Source: Aeromicrobium duanguangcaii | GTDB taxonomy: Bacteria > Actinomycetota > Actinomycetes > Propionibacteriales > Nocardioidaceae | Assembly (NCBI RefSeq): GCF_024508295.1 | Contig: NZ_CP101990.1 | Coordinates: 2,914,001 to 2,978,000, forward strand | Reading direction: 5' to 3' | DNA: 64,000 nucleotides | Part shown: piece by piece, positions 12,751 through 22,369 of the stretch | How the letters are laid out: each line of letters begins with the position of its first letter | Position numbering within the stretch: position 1 is the stretch's first letter | The notes under the pieces: model-generated | Database searches by the model: none | What the model was told of the DNA's origin: nothing | What the model saw: the letters and a program-made list of their open reading frames with translations, nothing else | Program-made: the position numbers and the translations under genes

Positions 12751-12797
12751 AGACGACGAGCGCCCCTCCCCGACCAGGGGAGGGGCGCTCGTCGTCT
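12751..12797. terminator. Bidirectional terminator between convergent genes
   Basis: A perfect 21-bp stem: the arm 12751-12771 (AGACGACGAGCGCCC then CTCCCC) is the reverse complement of 12777-12797, with a 5-nt loop. It separates the secreted protein from the convergent enoyl-CoA hydratase gene. Confidence 0.85.
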
Positions 12798-16666: not shown

Positions 16667-18265
16667 TCACAGGCGGAACACCCCGTAGCCGCGGGCGCCC
16701 TCGACGGGCGCGTTGGCGATGGCGGACAGGCAGATGCCCAAGATGGTGCGGGTGTCGCGCGGGTCGATGACGCCGTCGTCGTAGCCCAGGCCGCTGGTGA
16801 AGTACGCCAGCGACTGCTCCTCGATCTGCTGCTCGACGAGGTCCTTGATGCCCTGGAACCCCTCGGCGTCGAACGGGATGCCCTTGGACTCCGAGGACTG
16901 GCGGGCGACGATCTCCATGACGCCGGCCAGCTGCGCCGGGCCCATGACTGCCGACTTCGCGCCGACCCAGCTGAACATGAAGCGCGGGTCGTAGGCGCGG
17001 CCGCTCATCCCGTAGTGACCGGCGCCGTACGAGGCGCCCATCACGATCGAGATGTGCGGGACCTTGCTGTTGGAGACGGCGTTGATCATCTGCGCGCCGT
17101 GCTTGATGATGCCGCCCTGCTCGTACTCGGCGCCGACCATGTAGCCGGTCGTGTTGTGCAGGAACAGCAGCGGTGTGTCGATCTGGTTGGCCAGCTGGAT
17201 GAACTGCGCGGCCTTCTGGGCCTCCTGGCTGAACAGCACGCCCTGGGCGTTGGCCAGGATGCCGATCGGGTGGCCGTGCAGCTGGGCGAACCCGGTGACG
17301 AGGCTCTGGCCGTAGAGCGGCTTGAACTCGTCGAACTCGCTGCCGTCGACCAGGCGCGCGATGACCTCACGCGGGTCGAACGGCACCTTGAGGTCGGTCG
17401 GGACGATGCCCAGCAGGTCCTCCTGGTCCAGCAGCGGCTCGCTGTAGACCGAGGCGGGGACGGGGCCGGCCTTGCGCCAGTTGATGCGACGCATGATCTG
17501 GCGGCCGAGTCGGATCGCATCGCGCTCGTCGACGGCCAGGTAGTCGGCCAGGCCGGACTGCTTGGCGTGCATCTGCGCGCCGCCGAGCGACTCGTCGTCG
17601 GACTCCTCGCCGGTGGCCATCTTCACCAGCGGCGGGCCGCCGAGGAAGACCTTGGCGCCGCCGTCGACCATGACGACGTAGTCGCTCATGCCGGGCACGT
17701 ACGCGCCGCCGGCGGTGGAGTTGCCGAACACCAGCGCCACGGTGGGACGGCGGTCCTCACTGGCCTGCGTGATGTTGCGGAAGCTGGCGCCGCCGGGGAT
17801 GAAGATGTCCTTCTGCGTCGGCAGGTCGGCGCCGCCGGACTCGACCAGGTTGATCGTGGGCAGCCGGTTCTCGGCCGCGATCTGCGCGGCGCGGAAGCCC
17901 TTCTTGACCGTGACCGGGTTGGACGAGCCGCCCTTCACCGTGGGGTCGTTGGCGATGATCATGCACTCGACGCCCTCGACGACACCGATGCCGGTGATGA
18001 TCGAGCCGCCGACGGTGAAGTCGGTGCCCCAGCCGGCCAGCGCGCCCAGTTCGAGGAACGGCGCGTCCGGGTCGACGAGCAGCTCGATGCGCTCGCGCGC
18101 GGTCAGCTTGCCTCGGCTGTGATGACGGTCCACGTACTTCTCGCCGCCGCCGGCCAGCGCCTTGGCGTGCTGCTCGGCGAGGTCGGCGACGCGTTCGAGC
18201 GCCGCCTCCCGGTTCTGGGCGTACGCGGCCGACGTCGGGTCGACGGCGGTCCTGACTGCACTCAT
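16667..18265 (-). CDS. Acyl-CoA carboxylase beta subunit (carboxyltransferase)
   Basis: 532 residues. The ATG at 18265 overlaps the preceding stop (ATGA) and follows GGAAGGA. It has the full two-half crotonase-type carboxyltransferase: KLTARERIELLVDPDAPFLE near the start, an N-half oxyanion region at VFGNSTAGGAYVPGMSDY, and a C-half biotin/CoA region FLHNTTGYMVG, then GASYGAGHYGMSGRAYDPRF. The GAGHYGMSGRAY stretch is characteristic of methylcrotonyl/geranyl-CoA carboxylase beta chains rather than propionyl-CoA carboxylases (usually GGAYDVM). It transfers carboxyl from biotin to the 4-carbon or methyl branch of an enoyl-CoA. It works with the alpha chain encoded directly downstream. Confidence 0.92.
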   Translation of the reverse strand: MSAVRTAVDPTSAAYAQNREAALERVADLAEQHAKALAGGGEKYVDRHHSRGKLTARERIELLVDPDAPFLELGALAGWGTDFTVGGSIITGIGVVEGVECMIIANDPTVKGGSSNPVTVKKGFRAAQIAAENRLPTINLVESGGADLPTQKDIFIPGGASFRNITQASEDRRPTVALVFGNSTAGGAYVPGMSDYVVMVDGGAKVFLGGPPLVKMATGEESDDESLGGAQMHAKQSGLADYLAVDERDAIRLGRQIMRRINWRKAGPVPASVYSEPLLDQEDLLGIVPTDLKVPFDPREVIARLVDGSEFDEFKPLYGQSLVTGFAQLHGHPIGILANAQGVLFSQEAQKAAQFIQLANQIDTPLLFLHNTTGYMVGAEYEQGGIIKHGAQMINAVSNSKVPHISIVMGASYGAGHYGMSGRAYDPRFMFSWVGAKSAVMGPAQLAGVMEIVARQSSESKGIPFDAEGFQGIKDLVEQQIEEQSLAYFTSGLGYDDGVIDPRDTRTILGICLSAIANAPVEGARGYGVFRL

Positions 18266-19305
18266 GAAGCGTCCTTCCACTGCAGGTCGACGGTGGTGTC
18301 GAGGTGGTCGATGAGCGAGGCGGCATCGGACTCGATGCGCTCGCGGTCGGTGGGCGAGAGGGCTCGCACGGGGGTGATCTCGAGCAGGACCGGGTCGGCC
18401 TTGCGCGTGGGCTTGAGGCGACGCCAGGTCGCGGCGACGACGCCGTCGATCAGGGCCAGGTTGCCGCCCCAGACGTCGATGACTCCGTCGCGCGCCGTGG
18501 GCACCTCGTAGTGCGAGCGGTCCTGGTAGGCGATGACGAGCTCGTCGAAGAGGCTCAGCAGGAACGTGGTGCCGTCCGAGGTGGGCGCGTCGAACGCCTC
18601 GGGCTCGACCTGCTCGAACGCGCGCCGCGCGTCGGTGAGGGTCAGGCCGGCCCACCAGGCGAAGTCGCGGGCGGTGGCGGGCGCGTGGCCGGCCAGGTAC
18701 ATCGACGCGAGACGGACGAGCGCCTCGTCGCGGTCGAGGTCGCTGGCCGGGATGCGCGAGGCGTAGGGAACGAAGGTGTCCCAGCTGCCGCGGCGAGGGC
18801 CGGTCGTGACGACCTTGTCCAGCTCGGCGCCCATCGTGACGTGCCCGAGCGCCATGCCCTTGAGCTCGACCCCGCGCTCGGCCAGGGCCGCTCCGATCTC
18901 CTTGCGGGTCAGCGGGGCGTCCGCGGCCTCGACGATCTGGCCGACCACGGCGACGAACCGGTCGCGGTCCTCGAGCAGACCGGTGGACCGCAGCTGCGGG
19001 CGCGACTGCGCGCGGATCCGGTCGGCCGTCAGGTCGAGCATCCAGCCGAGGTCCTCGACGCGGACGACGTGCCACGTCGGGCGCAGCACGTGGTGCCGCA
19101 CCAGCGAGCCCTCGGCGATCTCCGTGGCGATCGCCTCACGTGAGGGCTTGTCCTTCGTGCGCCGGGCCAGCGACCACAGCGAGTCCTCGAACTCCTGGAA
19201 CTGCACCGCGCCGAGGGTTCCGACGCACGTGGCGAGGTCCGGGAACGGCTCGCCGATCAACCGTTGCCGAGCCATCCGCTCTCCGCGGACCTGTGCTGGG
19301 CTCAT
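18262..19305 (-). CDS. Winged helix DNA-binding domain protein (HTH_42 / AlkZ-like)
   Basis: 347 residues from the ATG at 19305; the reading frame stays open upstream, but that part is the palindromic repeat element. The protein begins with MSPAQVRGERMARQRLIG and shows the HTH_42 arrangement (three winged-helix modules): LVRHHVLRPTWHVV near residue 90, a middle module with LTRKEIGAAL, and a C-terminal part with LIDGVVAATWRR. This superfamily includes AlkZ/YcaQ DNA glycosylases, but the diagnostic catalytic motif of those (QxD/QxQ) is not evident. A DNA-repair or regulatory role is therefore open. It overlaps the carboxyltransferase gene, so it belongs to that transcript. Confidence 0.8.
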   Translation of the reverse strand: MSPAQVRGERMARQRLIGEPFPDLATCVGTLGAVQFQEFEDSLWSLARRTKDKPSREAIATEIAEGSLVRHHVLRPTWHVVRVEDLGWMLDLTADRIRAQSRPQLRSTGLLEDRDRFVAVVGQIVEAADAPLTRKEIGAALAERGVELKGMALGHVTMGAELDKVVTTGPRRGSWDTFVPYASRIPASDLDRDEALVRLASMYLAGHAPATARDFAWWAGLTLTDARRAFEQVEPEAFDAPTSDGTTFLLSLFDELVIAYQDRSHYEVPTARDGVIDVWGGNLALIDGVVAATWRRLKPTRKADPVLLEITPVRALSPTDRERIESDAASLIDHLDTTVDLQWKDAS

Positions 19306-19320
19306 GTCCGCCACCCCTCT

Positions 19321-19383
19321 CCACTTTTGGAAACGGTGACACCGTCCACGGACGAAAACGCGTGGATCCGTTTCCAAAAGTGG
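19321..19383. repeat. 63-bp palindromic element, copy A (intergenic)
   Basis: Outer arms CCACTTTTGGAAACGG (19321-19336) and CCGTTTCCAAAAGTGG (19368-19383) are perfect inverted repeats. The element lies between the acyl-CoA dehydrogenase stop and the winged-helix start, with the same length and ends as copy B at 20910. AT-rich arms stand out from their surroundings. Confidence 0.88.
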
Positions 19384-19409: not shown

Positions 19410-20561
19410 TCAGTACCCCAGCAGCTTCGCGGCGAGGTCCTTCATGACCTCGGTGGCGCCGCCGCCGATGCCCAGGATGCGGGCGTCGCGGTAGTGGCGG
19501 TCGATCTCGGACTCGCGCATGTAACCCATGCCGCCGAAGATCTGGACGGCCTCGTGGACGACGTATTCGGCGCAGGCGACGGCCTGGTTCTTGGCCACGA
19601 CAGCGTCGAGGATCAGGGTCGGGTCGGACTTGGGGGTGTCGACGGCGCGCTCGACGACCTCGCGGGTCAGGGCGCGGGCGGCGGCCGTGCGCGAGTGCAT
19701 CTCGACCAGCTTGTGGCGGATGACCTGCCGGGCGATGAGCGGCTTGCCGAACGTCTCGCGCTCCTTGGCGTACGCGGCGGCGAGGTCGAGGGCGCGCTGC
19801 GCGGTGGCGTAGGACTGCGTCGCGAGGTTGATCCGCTCGCCGACGAACTGCTGGGCGATCAGGTAGAAGCCGCTGTTCTCCTCGCCGACGACGTTCTCGA
19901 CGGGGACGCGCACGTCCTCGAAGGACAGCTCGGCGGTGTCGGAGCAGTGCCAGCCCATCTTGCGCAGGCTGCGGCCGACGGTGAAGCCGGGCGTGTCCTT
20001 GTCGATGACCAGCAGGCTGATGCCGCCGTGGCCCTCATCGCCCGTGCGGACGGCGGTGGTCACGAAGTCGGCGCGCACGCCGCTGGTGATGAAGGTCTTG
20101 GCGCCGTTGACGACGTAGTGGTCGCCGTCGCGGACGGCGCGGGTGCGGATGTTGGCCACGTCGGAGCCGCCGCCGGGCTCGGTGACGCCGAGGGCGCCGA
20201 TCATCTCGCCGGCGAGCGTCGGGCGGACGTACCGGTCGATCAGGTCGGCGTTGCCCGAGTCGATGATGTGCGGCGTTGCGATCGCGTGGGTGAACAGGCT
20301 TGCCTGCAGGCCCGTCGATCCGCCCGCGGCGAGCATCGCCTCGGTGGCGATGCCGGCGTCGATCATGTCGCCACCGTCGCCGCCGACCTCCTCGGGGAAC
20401 CCGACGGCCAGGAAGCCCGCCTTGGCGGTCTTGCGGTGCAGCTCGCGCGGGAGCTCGCCGTCGTCCTCCCACTGGGCGAGGTGCGGCGCGATCTCGGCGC
20501 GGGTGAAGGCCTCGACGGCCTGGCGCAGCGCCTGCCGCTCGTCGGTGTTCCAGGGGTTCAT
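19410..20561 (-). CDS. Acyl-CoA dehydrogenase family protein
   Basis: 383 residues. The ATG at 20561 overlaps the AtuA-like gene's stop (ATGA). Motifs: GFPEEVGGDGG (about 54-64), GALGVTEPGGGSDVANIRT (signature 1, about 123-141), and near the C-terminus QIFGGMGYMRESEIDRHYRD followed by DARILGIGGGATEVM. The R-D-A-R-I-x-x-I-x-x-G-A/T-x-E stretch is the canonical signature 2 with the catalytic Glu region of short-chain and branched acyl-CoA dehydrogenases. It catalyses alpha,beta-desaturation with FAD and ETF. Two dehydrogenases in one cluster match atu/liu gene sets, where one acts on citronellyl-CoA and the other later in the pathway. Confidence 0.91.
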   Translation of the reverse strand: MNPWNTDERQALRQAVEAFTRAEIAPHLAQWEDDGELPRELHRKTAKAGFLAVGFPEEVGGDGGDMIDAGIATEAMLAAGGSTGLQASLFTHAIATPHIIDSGNADLIDRYVRPTLAGEMIGALGVTEPGGGSDVANIRTRAVRDGDHYVVNGAKTFITSGVRADFVTTAVRTGDEGHGGISLLVIDKDTPGFTVGRSLRKMGWHCSDTAELSFEDVRVPVENVVGEENSGFYLIAQQFVGERINLATQSYATAQRALDLAAAYAKERETFGKPLIARQVIRHKLVEMHSRTAAARALTREVVERAVDTPKSDPTLILDAVVAKNQAVACAEYVVHEAVQIFGGMGYMRESEIDRHYRDARILGIGGGATEVMKDLAAKLLGY

Positions 20562-22294
20562 GCGAGCAGCTCCTCGGGGATGGTCACGATGCGGGCGCGC
20601 AGCCATTCGCCGAGCGCCTTGGCCTGGGGGTCGAAGCGCGTCGACGAGGCGACGCCCTCCCCCAACAGGCCGTGCAGGATCAGGTTGATGCCGGACAGGT
20701 TCGGCAGCGGGTGGACGTCGATCGCCAGGTCGGCCGCCTCGGGCAACAGCTCGCGGACGCGATCCTCGGTCAGGAAGGTCTCGAGCCAGGCGTAGGCCTG
20801 CTCGCGGCGCGGGTGGCTCGAGGGGATCCAGACGCCGACGTTGGCGTTGCCGCCCTTGTCGCCCGAGCGCGCGTGGACCAGGCGGCCCAGCGCGCTCGGC
20901 CGCCCCTCGCCACTTTTGGAAACGGATCCACCATTCTCTGCCGAACTTGCGTGGATCCGGTTCCAAAAGTGGCTCTCAGGGTCGGCCGTGACGGCGGGCG
21001 GGGCGATCTCCGTGCGCGAGCCGTCGGCGTGCACGACCACGTGGGGCACCTCGGCCTGCGGCACGTACGCCGCGCGGTAGATCCCGTAGGGGGCGCCGCG
21101 GCCGGGAGGCGCGGTCATCGTGAAGCCGGGGTACGACGCGAGGGCGACCTCGACGGCGGCGCCGCTGAAGCCGCGGCCGACCAAGTTCAGGTCGGCGTCC
21201 TTGACGTGGCAGCGCAGGATCGCGGCGGCCTCGGGCTGGGAGGCCGGGTCGCGGTGGTCGGTGCGCGCGAGGTCCCAGACAATCTCGGCGGGCGGGTTGC
21301 CAGCCAGGGCCGTCTCGATCTGGCGGCGCACCCAGGCGGCCTTCTCCTCGATGTCGAGGCCGGTCAGGACGAACTCCACGTTGTTGCGGAACCCGCCGAA
21401 CGCGTTGAGGCAGACCTTCGTGGTCGCCGGCGGCGCACCGCCGCGGACGCCGGAGATGCGCACGCGATCGTCGCCGTCGGCGGCCAGGTCGATGCTGGTC
21501 AGGTCGACCACGACGTCGGGGTTCAGGTACCGCTGGTCCTGGATCTCGTAGACGAGCTGCGCGGTGACGGTGTCGACCGTGACCGCGCCGCCGGTGCCTT
21601 CGTGCTTGGTGATGACGACGTCGCCGGTCTCGCTGATCTCGGCGATGGGGAAGCCGAGCGGCCGGGTGGTGTCGATGTCGAGGAAGCCGCTGAAGTTGCC
21701 GCCCGTCGCCTGCGCGCCGCACTCGATGACATGGCCTGCCACGACCGCGCCGGCGAGCCGGTCGAAGTCCTCGCGCCCCCAGCCGAACTCGGCGATCGCG
21801 GGCCCGACGACGACGGAGGCGTCCGTGACGCGGCCGGTGACGACGATGTCGGCGCCGGCCTGCAGCGCCTCGGCGATGCCGAACGCGCCGAGGTAGGCGT
21901 TGGCGGTCAGCGCGTCACCGAAGCCGAACTCGGCCGAGCGCGCCACCAGGTCGTCGCCCTCGACGTGCGCAACGGAGACCTCGACGCCCTGCTCGGCGGC
22001 GACCTTGCGGATGGCGTCGGCCAGGCCGGCCGGGTTGAGGCCGCCGGCGTTGGCGACGACCTTGACGCCGCGCTCCTTCGCCAGCGCGAGGTTCTCGGTC
22101 AGCTGCTTGAGGAACGTCTTGGCGTACCCGAGATCGGTGTCCTTCATCCGGTCGCGGCCCAGGATCAGCATCGTCAGCTCGGCGAGGTAGTCGCCGGTGA
22201 GGTAGTCGAGCTCGCCGCCCTCGAGCATCTCGCGCATCGCCGAGAAGCGATCGCCGTAGAAGCCCGAGCAGTTGCCGACACGAAGAGTACGCAC
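20558..22294 (-). CDS. AtuA-like protein (acyclic terpene utilisation family, DUF1446) with in-frame palindromic insertion
   Basis: 578 residues from the GTG at 22294, six nt after a GACACT hexamer that itself lies 17 nt from TTGACT, so a leaderless start; a GTG at 22315 would add seven residues but sits inside the promoter. The N-terminus TLRVGNCSGFYGDRFSA, then GGELDYLTGDYLAELTM and VANAGGLNP, is the AtuA family signature. A C-terminal domain begins at GRLVHARSGDKGG. Between them, about residues 441-462 are encoded by a 63-bp palindromic element inserted in frame. AtuA is required for growth on citronellol and geraniol in Pseudomonas, with no established reaction. The gene heads the acyl-CoA run and supports a terpenoid or branched-chain acid pathway. 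Confidence 0.86.
   Translation of the reverse strand: MRTLRVGNCSGFYGDRFSAMREMLEGGELDYLTGDYLAELTMLILGRDRMKDTDLGYAKTFLKQLTENLALAKERGVKVVANAGGLNPAGLADAIRKVAAEQGVEVSVAHVEGDDLVARSAEFGFGDALTANAYLGAFGIAEALQAGADIVVTGRVTDASVVVGPAIAEFGWGREDFDRLAGAVVAGHVIECGAQATGGNFSGFLDIDTTRPLGFPIAEISETGDVVITKHEGTGGAVTVDTVTAQLVYEIQDQRYLNPDVVVDLTSIDLAADGDDRVRISGVRGGAPPATTKVCLNAFGGFRNNVEFVLTGLDIEEKAAWVRRQIETALAGNPPAEIVWDLARTDHRDPASQPEAAAILRCHVKDADLNLVGRGFSGAAVEVALASYPGFTMTAPPGRGAPYGIYRAAYVPQAEVPHVVVHADGSRTEIAPPAVTADPESHFWNRIHASSAENGGSVSKSGEGRPSALGRLVHARSGDKGGNANVGVWIPSSHPRREQAYAWLETFLTEDRVRELLPEAADLAIDVHPLPNLSGINLILHGLLGEGVASSTRFDPQAKALGEWLRARIVTIPEELLA
20910..20972. repeat. 63-bp palindromic element, copy B (inside the AtuA-like gene)
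   Basis: Starts CCACTTTTGGAAACGGATCC and ends GGATCCGGTTCCAAAAGTGG, a near-perfect inverted repeat, exactly 63 bp like copy A. It adds 21 codons without disturbing the frame, encoding a Ser-His-Phe-Trp-Asn-Arg-Ile-His segment at an interdomain linker. Confidence 0.9.
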
Positions 22295-22309
22295 GGGACG
22301 AGTGTCCCG
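22294..22309. promoter_or_regulatory. Candidate operator over the AtuA-like gene promoter
   Basis: Perfect inverted repeat CGGGAC-GAGT-GTCCCG overlaps the predicted -10 (22301-22306) and touches the start codon. A TetR-type gene lies at 22716-23354 and could act here; the assignment is inferential. Confidence 0.4.
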
Positions 22310-22369
22310 CGTCACAAAGAAACAGTCAAGCCTGCTTTTTAGTTTCCACAGCTTCGTTCCCGGCGACCG

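Follow-up and report, generated by a model that had tools for sequence, protein, structure and literature searches.

Two copies of a 63-bp palindromic element occur in the 64,000-nucleotide stretch of Aeromicrobium duanguangcaii DNA analysed here (contig NZ_CP101990.1, positions 2,914,001 to 2,978,000; hereafter the window), and one of them lies in frame in a gene for an AtuA-like protein. Such 63-bp elements are probably recognition elements, dispersed through the genome, for one lineage of a nuclease family in which an AbiEi-like domain is joined to a Vsr/EDxHD nuclease, and would constitute a replicator resembling the pairing of REPINs (doublets of repetitive extragenic palindromes, REPs) with RAYTs (REP-associated tyrosine transposases), served by an unrelated enzyme. 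The elements are dispersed, fixed in length and conserved in place in their arms; matched pairs of them flank the nuclease gene, and protein and palindrome diverge together. We hold with high confidence that palindrome type and nuclease lineage are one co-evolving unit. The nuclease is likely to bind its palindrome, and spreading of the copies by the nuclease is the best mechanism on offer, which we favour with some reserve. A literature search returned no report of this palindrome-nuclease association.

Nuclease genes and their flanking palindromes

In the home genome (G000, a single contig of 3.13 Mb), Aeromicrobium senzhongii (G018), Aeromicrobium flavum (G007) and genome G006, two 63-bp elements about 1.1 kb apart bracket one gene. 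This cognate gene of the home genome lies outside the window, at G000:C1:947305-948228, with an element on each side, and its product joins a winged-helix DNA-binding domain of AbiEi-like type to a nuclease of the homing-endonuclease (Vsr/EDxHD) type. The EDxHD/Vsr fold is found together with the conserved E, D, H and D residues, PADLOC AbiEi profiles hit the N-terminus in all four proteins scanned, and Pfam gives weak DUF559 and MTES_1575 matches, with AbiEi_4 in two of three. Across 13 members at E 0.01, DUF559 was matched in 12 and MTES_1575 in 11. Of the 50 matches listed, the few that carry a name are annotated “hypothetical protein” or “DUF559 domain-containing protein”, and one is a “very-short-patch-repair endonuclease”. 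Ten neighbours at five nuclease loci matched LepA, Phytase-like, FtsK, Ddl, AIRS, Lactamase_B fold, Crp, UPF0047 and HAD, with one lacking a match; no AbiEii-type partner was found among them at E 1e-5, a short predicted open reading frame (ORF) beside locus L295 being outside that scan.

Palindrome pairs also stand around ordinary genes, and the association was therefore tested from the protein side. The case in point is a second palindrome family, CGAGTGGYGC..., present in 24 of 49 genomes of the genus and, among the matches listed, 57 bp long save for nested 77-bp readings in G034. Relatives of the nuclease protein (25-30% identity) sit between such pairs in G034 and, frameshifted, in G058; other pairs there flank ordinary genes. 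Many copies of the 57-bp family carry a conserved asymmetric loop, GGGACGGCGTGTC.

The nuclease family was found in 46 of the 49 genus genomes. At 52 nuclease loci, palindromes stand on both sides in 39, on one side in 12 and on neither in 1, and the arms on the two sides match in 36. For eight of these loci, those behind the covariance model described below among them, palindromes were already known or expected; the remaining 44 gave 31 two-sided and 28 matched loci. The 111 control genes, taken from stretches of G059, G018 and G000, gave 10 two-sided and 0 matched. A second locus set (n = 20) gave 15 two-sided and 10 matched. The pairs are separated by a median centre-to-centre distance of 1112 bp (standard deviation 72), and protein identity predicts arm similarity between genomes (Mantel r 0.69, 0/999 permutations; uncorrected for species kinship).

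Dispersed types also recur beside the nuclease genes of the same genomes. The CTTTTGTGACG type occurs in 3 of the 49 genomes (eight copies in G006, five in G060, one in G068), and both G006 and G060 carry a nuclease gene bracketed by it. The type found in the AtuA linker of G020 brackets its nuclease L362 on both sides, that of G011 is similar to the flank of nuclease L363, and the dispersed type of G012 is similar to the single palindrome beside nuclease L300. A second nuclease of the home genome (L312) has GATTTGCTCC-like flanks; allowing one mismatch per end, further copies of this kind were located at G000 C1:921267, in another stretch of the home genome, in G018 and in G068. Two more genes of the nuclease family were seen in the home genome, and each has a palindrome type to itself (G000:C1:921267-921329 (L046), L241:12060-12116, L312 and L313). 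In G034 and G008, one genome carries both 57-bp sub-types, CGAGTGGTGC and CGAGTGGCGC, each around a different nuclease gene (L246, L268, L306, L269).

Across the class, 107 of the 148 genomes have the nuclease protein, four of them of the same genus. Outside the genus, 26 loci gave 18 two-sided and 14 matched under the genus rule; a looser rule gave 21 and 17, against 17 two-sided and 0 matched of the 111 controls under that same rule, these being genes of the genus only. The GATCATGGAGAA type is dispersed in six of seven genomes of its genus (8-45 copies) and occurs in 0 of 13 others. At locus L330 (G212), in another genus of the family, three palindromes of one type lie in tandem on one side of the nuclease gene.

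Distribution and conservation of the 63-bp family

A dispersed family, which the preliminary description had left to a genome search for further copies, was indeed found: a covariance model built from 13 copies gave 14 sites in the home genome, all 63 bp long, and one extra weak match (E 0.045) that fits another palindrome type. The model matched six of 58 genomes (G000, G006, G007, G018, G012, G036); a second covariance search added G060 and G068 and gave no match in G059. The scan covered 40 of the 49 genus genomes used later. The exact element pattern retrieved 11 stretches from a genome collection, all A. flavum, in a search that may omit the window's nearest records, and no exact match to the element was found in viral contigs. 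Arm sequence differs by lineage: CCACTTTTGGAAnnnGATCCAC in the home clade, CCACTTYTGGAACGCGTTGCAC in G068, CGAGATYTGGCC in G036 and CCAGATTTGCGG in G012. We regard the G036 and G012 arms as further types of one kind of palindrome.

In all, 120 copies from eight genomes were read, 24 of them in A. flavum. Placed with a home-made gene finder, 57 lie between convergent and 54 between co-directional genes, four between divergent genes and three inside a gene, with two at locus edges; background gene pairs at the same loci number 28, 131 and 39 for the three orientations, so that convergent positions are enriched (Fisher 3e-11). Copies typically lie 10-40 bp past stop codons; the nearest one upstream is a median 24 bp away at convergent and 27 bp at co-directional positions. 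Orthologous groups spanning two or more species, 29 in all, hold 98 of the copies; the other 22 are single.

Between orthologous copies of the home genome and G018, 9 of 528 arm positions changed, as did 26 of 228 in the centre and 58 of 283 in the flanks. Pairing of the two arms within a copy exceeds same-species shuffles at positions 1-12 (reached by 1 of 2000 shuffles) and at 13-15 and 16-22 (0 of 2000). No RNA-strand bias was found in the pairing, with 25 G-U and 29 A-C mismatches over 57 sites in transcript orientation. Taken together, arm conservation and pairing free of RNA bias mean that the arms are kept in place at the DNA level; their covariation could alternatively come from template-switch correction between arms.

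We infer binding, dimerisation, cleavage and mobility, along the following lines. A nuclease dimer would bind the two 22-bp arms of a symmetric site of about 60 bp and nick or cut at, or adjoining, the palindrome. Repair or replication might then copy the element to new places, or re-seed it there, mostly at gene 3' ends where insertion is tolerated, and ongoing recognition would keep the arms conserved and paired. The in-frame copy of the window would be one such copy, landed in a flexible linker of AtuA and translated.

The two window copies and the AtuA linker

Both copies (Table 1) are 63 bp long and share the ends CCACTTTTGGAAACGG...CCAAAAGTGG; the preliminary description had their coordinates, length and ends exactly right, and also noted their AT-rich arms in high-GC DNA (GC of the copies 0.54 and 0.52, against 0.707 for the window). 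A sequence search with copy B retrieves copy A at E 9.8e-11, and a pattern of the two ends occurs at ten sites in the genome, with 0 for the reversed-pattern control. The bare palindrome score of copy B is 21, compared with best scores of 13-17 in five block-shuffled windows, and that of copy A is 16, not above them; copy A is thus proven real because its sequence is repeated and not by palindromy alone. The paired arms are 22 nt each. Between them lie 19 variable nucleotides whose pairing is not above shuffles, in keeping with the earlier remark that the inner parts differ between copies. C-run and G-run flanks, a point new to this analysis, sit about 4-7 nt outside the element in a profile over both arms; their complementarity equals that of shuffled partners (548 versus a mean of 547), so the paired structure stops at 63 bp.

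Table 1. Positions of the two palindromic elements and adjoining features in window coordinates
Feature	Position	Strand	Description
Copy A	19321-19383	.	63-bp element between acyl-CoA dehydrogenase stop codon and AlkZ-like gene start
Copy B	20910-20972	.	63-bp palindromic element with 22-nt arms and 19-nt variable centre, in frame in the AtuA linker
AtuA gene	20558..22315	(-)	PF07287 core and PF23544 ferredoxin-like domain (Pfam), copy B between the two domains
Acyl-CoA dehydrogenase gene	19410..20561	(-)	Copy A 26 bp past its stop codon
AlkZ-like gene (PF06224)	18262..19305	(-)	Start (our choice) just beyond copy A
C-rich left flank of copy B	20903..20909	.	Flank consensus CCCCYCY over copies read; mirror G-run on the right

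Copy A is common to G018, G006 and G060 and absent in G007 and G059; in G068 its left part alone is readable by eye. Elsewhere in the window, a 47-bp GC-rich near-perfect hairpin at 12751-12797 is probably an ordinary terminator and falls outside the palindrome family.

Copy B codes for about residues 448-469 of the 585-aa AtuA ORF and is free of stops, as had been described. Of the 49 genus genomes, 47 contain AtuA homologues, and the linker was compared at 30 loci. The 63-bp type is present there in the home genome, A. senzhongii and A. flavum, decayed in G068 and absent from 26 of the 30 loci, which supports the preliminary description as far as this type is concerned; linker length itself varies. 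For that reason copy B does not amount to a clean addition of 21 residues over element-free homologues, as had been proposed, and the divisibility of 63 by 3 looks incidental, other palindrome types spanning about 50-75 bp. A linker palindrome scores above all 200 shuffles at 11 of the 30 loci, with several sequence types and with open frames: AACTTTTGTGACG in G006 and G060, CCAGATTTGCTGACTTCGCC in G020 and a 57-bp CGAGTGG type in G058. The AtuA linker looks like a repeated landing place for palindromes, and it illustrates how such repeats turn into protein.

Alternative explanations and known systems

Several observations weigh against recognition and spread by the nuclease. Most copies sit in orthologous groups and recent jumping was not seen; direct repeats of at least 3 nt, as a target duplication would leave, occur at 0 of 119 sites (shuffled mean 1.9). 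G060 and G068 keep 63-bp copies although no close relative of the cognate nuclease was found there, so the family can outlast the nuclease. Their copies are more decayed, with an outer-arm agreement of 0.934 in G060 and 0.880 in G068, against 0.944-0.982 in the four genomes with the gene, but the value for A. flavum, 0.944, is close. Matched pairs are lacking under the strict rule at 16 of 52, 10 of 20 and 12 of 26 loci of the three sets, 3 of the 39 two-sided genus loci are unmatched, and in an earlier pass, which drew the gene boundaries differently, the 52 loci split into 35 two-sided, 15 one-sided and 2 without palindromes. To these may be added DUF559 scores near or below the cut-off for some members, a Mantel correlation uncorrected for kinship, the home-made palindrome caller and gene finder, the restriction of controls to the genus, and G190, a genome of the GATCATGGAGAA genus with 0 copies. 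Arm conservation in place would equally fit a host function.

That last point leads to the strongest alternative, which we nevertheless consider unlikely: sites kept by host selection, being operators of an AbiEi-type regulator or protected sites of a restriction or defence system, and not replicators. Such sites would be strongly conserved in place and common to several species, as the arms and copies are, and the AbiEi profile hits, like the palindrome upstream of the nuclease gene at a possible operator position, would fit an operator. However, the copies mark 3' ends and not promoters (4 of 115 classifiable intergenic sites are divergent, against 39 of 198 background pairs), their neighbours are many and unrelated, the neighbours scanned included no AbiEii-type partner, and the several palindrome types in the AtuA linker across species look like insertions.

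Bidirectional terminators or 3'-end RNA hairpins that share sequence by chance would explain the positions past stop codons and between convergent genes, and are less likely still. An ordinary GC-rich hairpin replaces the element at one convergent gene pair in G018 (L240; the home genome, L012, has the 63-bp element there) and at another orthologous convergent site in G059, both judged by eye. Nonetheless, a U tract is absent and the 3' flank is G-rich; G-U mismatches are no commoner than A-C ones, so that pairing is not tuned to RNA; conservation exceeds what a hairpin needs, the element also lies inside the AtuA gene, and palindrome type follows nuclease lineage. The G-rich 3' flank and the mismatch counts likewise led us to reject classification as an intrinsic terminator.

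Rickettsia palindromic elements are palindromes read in frame in proteins. The preliminary description had likened copy B to them, and inserts with such an in-frame habit would account for it and for the other in-frame palindromes in the AtuA linkers of other species. This is very improbable, since only 3 of the 120 copies lie in a gene, all at one orthologous AtuA site, and the spans of other types are not confined to multiples of 3; in-frame insertion is the exception in the family, which makes the resemblance superficial. Classical REPINs moved by a Y1 (RAYT) transposase share the layout of inverted arms, variable centre and the 3'-end placement that PMC3733652 describes for REPs, but can be dismissed almost entirely: the Y1 family PF01797 was found in none of the 49 genus genomes at E 1e-3 (5 of 14 control genomes were positive), the ends of the 63-bp, G036, G012 and G068 types read CCAC/CGAG/CCAG next to a C-rich flank and no GTAG or CGTC tag was found, and the flanked gene is a different one.

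Assignments to other known classes were also rejected: the elements are not miniature inverted-repeat elements of a DDE transposon, given target-site duplication at 0 of 119 sites; the nuclease loci are not AbiE toxin-antitoxin systems, given no adjacent AbiEii nucleotidyltransferase among the ten neighbours of five loci; and membership of REPIN/RAYT fails on the defining Y1 (HUH) enzyme, sought as PF01797 in the 49 genus genomes and not found.

Compared with the AbiE antitoxin AbiEi (PDB 6y8q), the present proteins carry a nuclease fusion and those neighbours include no AbiEii-type gene. The EDxHD homing endonuclease I-Bth0305I (PDB 3r3p; PMC3943268) differs in that here the nuclease is joined to an AbiEi-like domain and genome-dispersed palindromes flank its gene; no intron was seen, none having been searched for. 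Rickettsia palindromic elements, which PMC3733652 mentions, are alike in a palindrome read in frame in a protein, whereas copies here are overwhelmingly intergenic. The CGTC-tagged REPs, which “apparently lack a dedicated transposase” (PMC3733652), are likewise palindromic repeats without a RAYT; here there is no sequence tag, and a candidate enzyme was identified by flanking and co-divergence.

The closest counterpart is REPIN/RAYT. PMC3116915 and PMC3733652 describe inverted repeats that form hairpins and are scattered over the genome, close to stop codons and in some cases within genes, with several REP types per genome, each beside its own gene; in PMC3733652 the strings “actinobacteri”, “Streptomyces” and “Mycobacterium” have 0 occurrences. 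Shared with the present system are inverted arms, a variable centre, dispersal, mostly extragenic placement near stop codons, and a repeat type that stands beside, and diverges in step with, the gene of its own enzyme, though the enzyme family is another one. The enzyme here is an AbiEi-like protein with an EDxHD/Vsr-type nuclease and not a Y1 transposase, and the repeat is a single palindrome of about 50-75 bp, untagged and actinobacterial. The question addressed is whether enzymes other than RAYT can be dedicated to palindromic repeats in bacteria. A widespread nuclease family gains a testable role, its probable DNA targets may be read from its own flanks, and the natural dialects offer ready nuclease-site pairs for specificity work. 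On balance we lean towards an undescribed class of actinobacterial intragenomic replicators, in which a domesticated homing-type (EDxHD/Vsr) nuclease carrying an AbiEi domain would keep and spread palindromes of about 50-75 bp, with several enzyme-palindrome pairs per genome and selection across species: a counterpart of REPIN/RAYT that arose independently, by convergence, and has a different chemistry.
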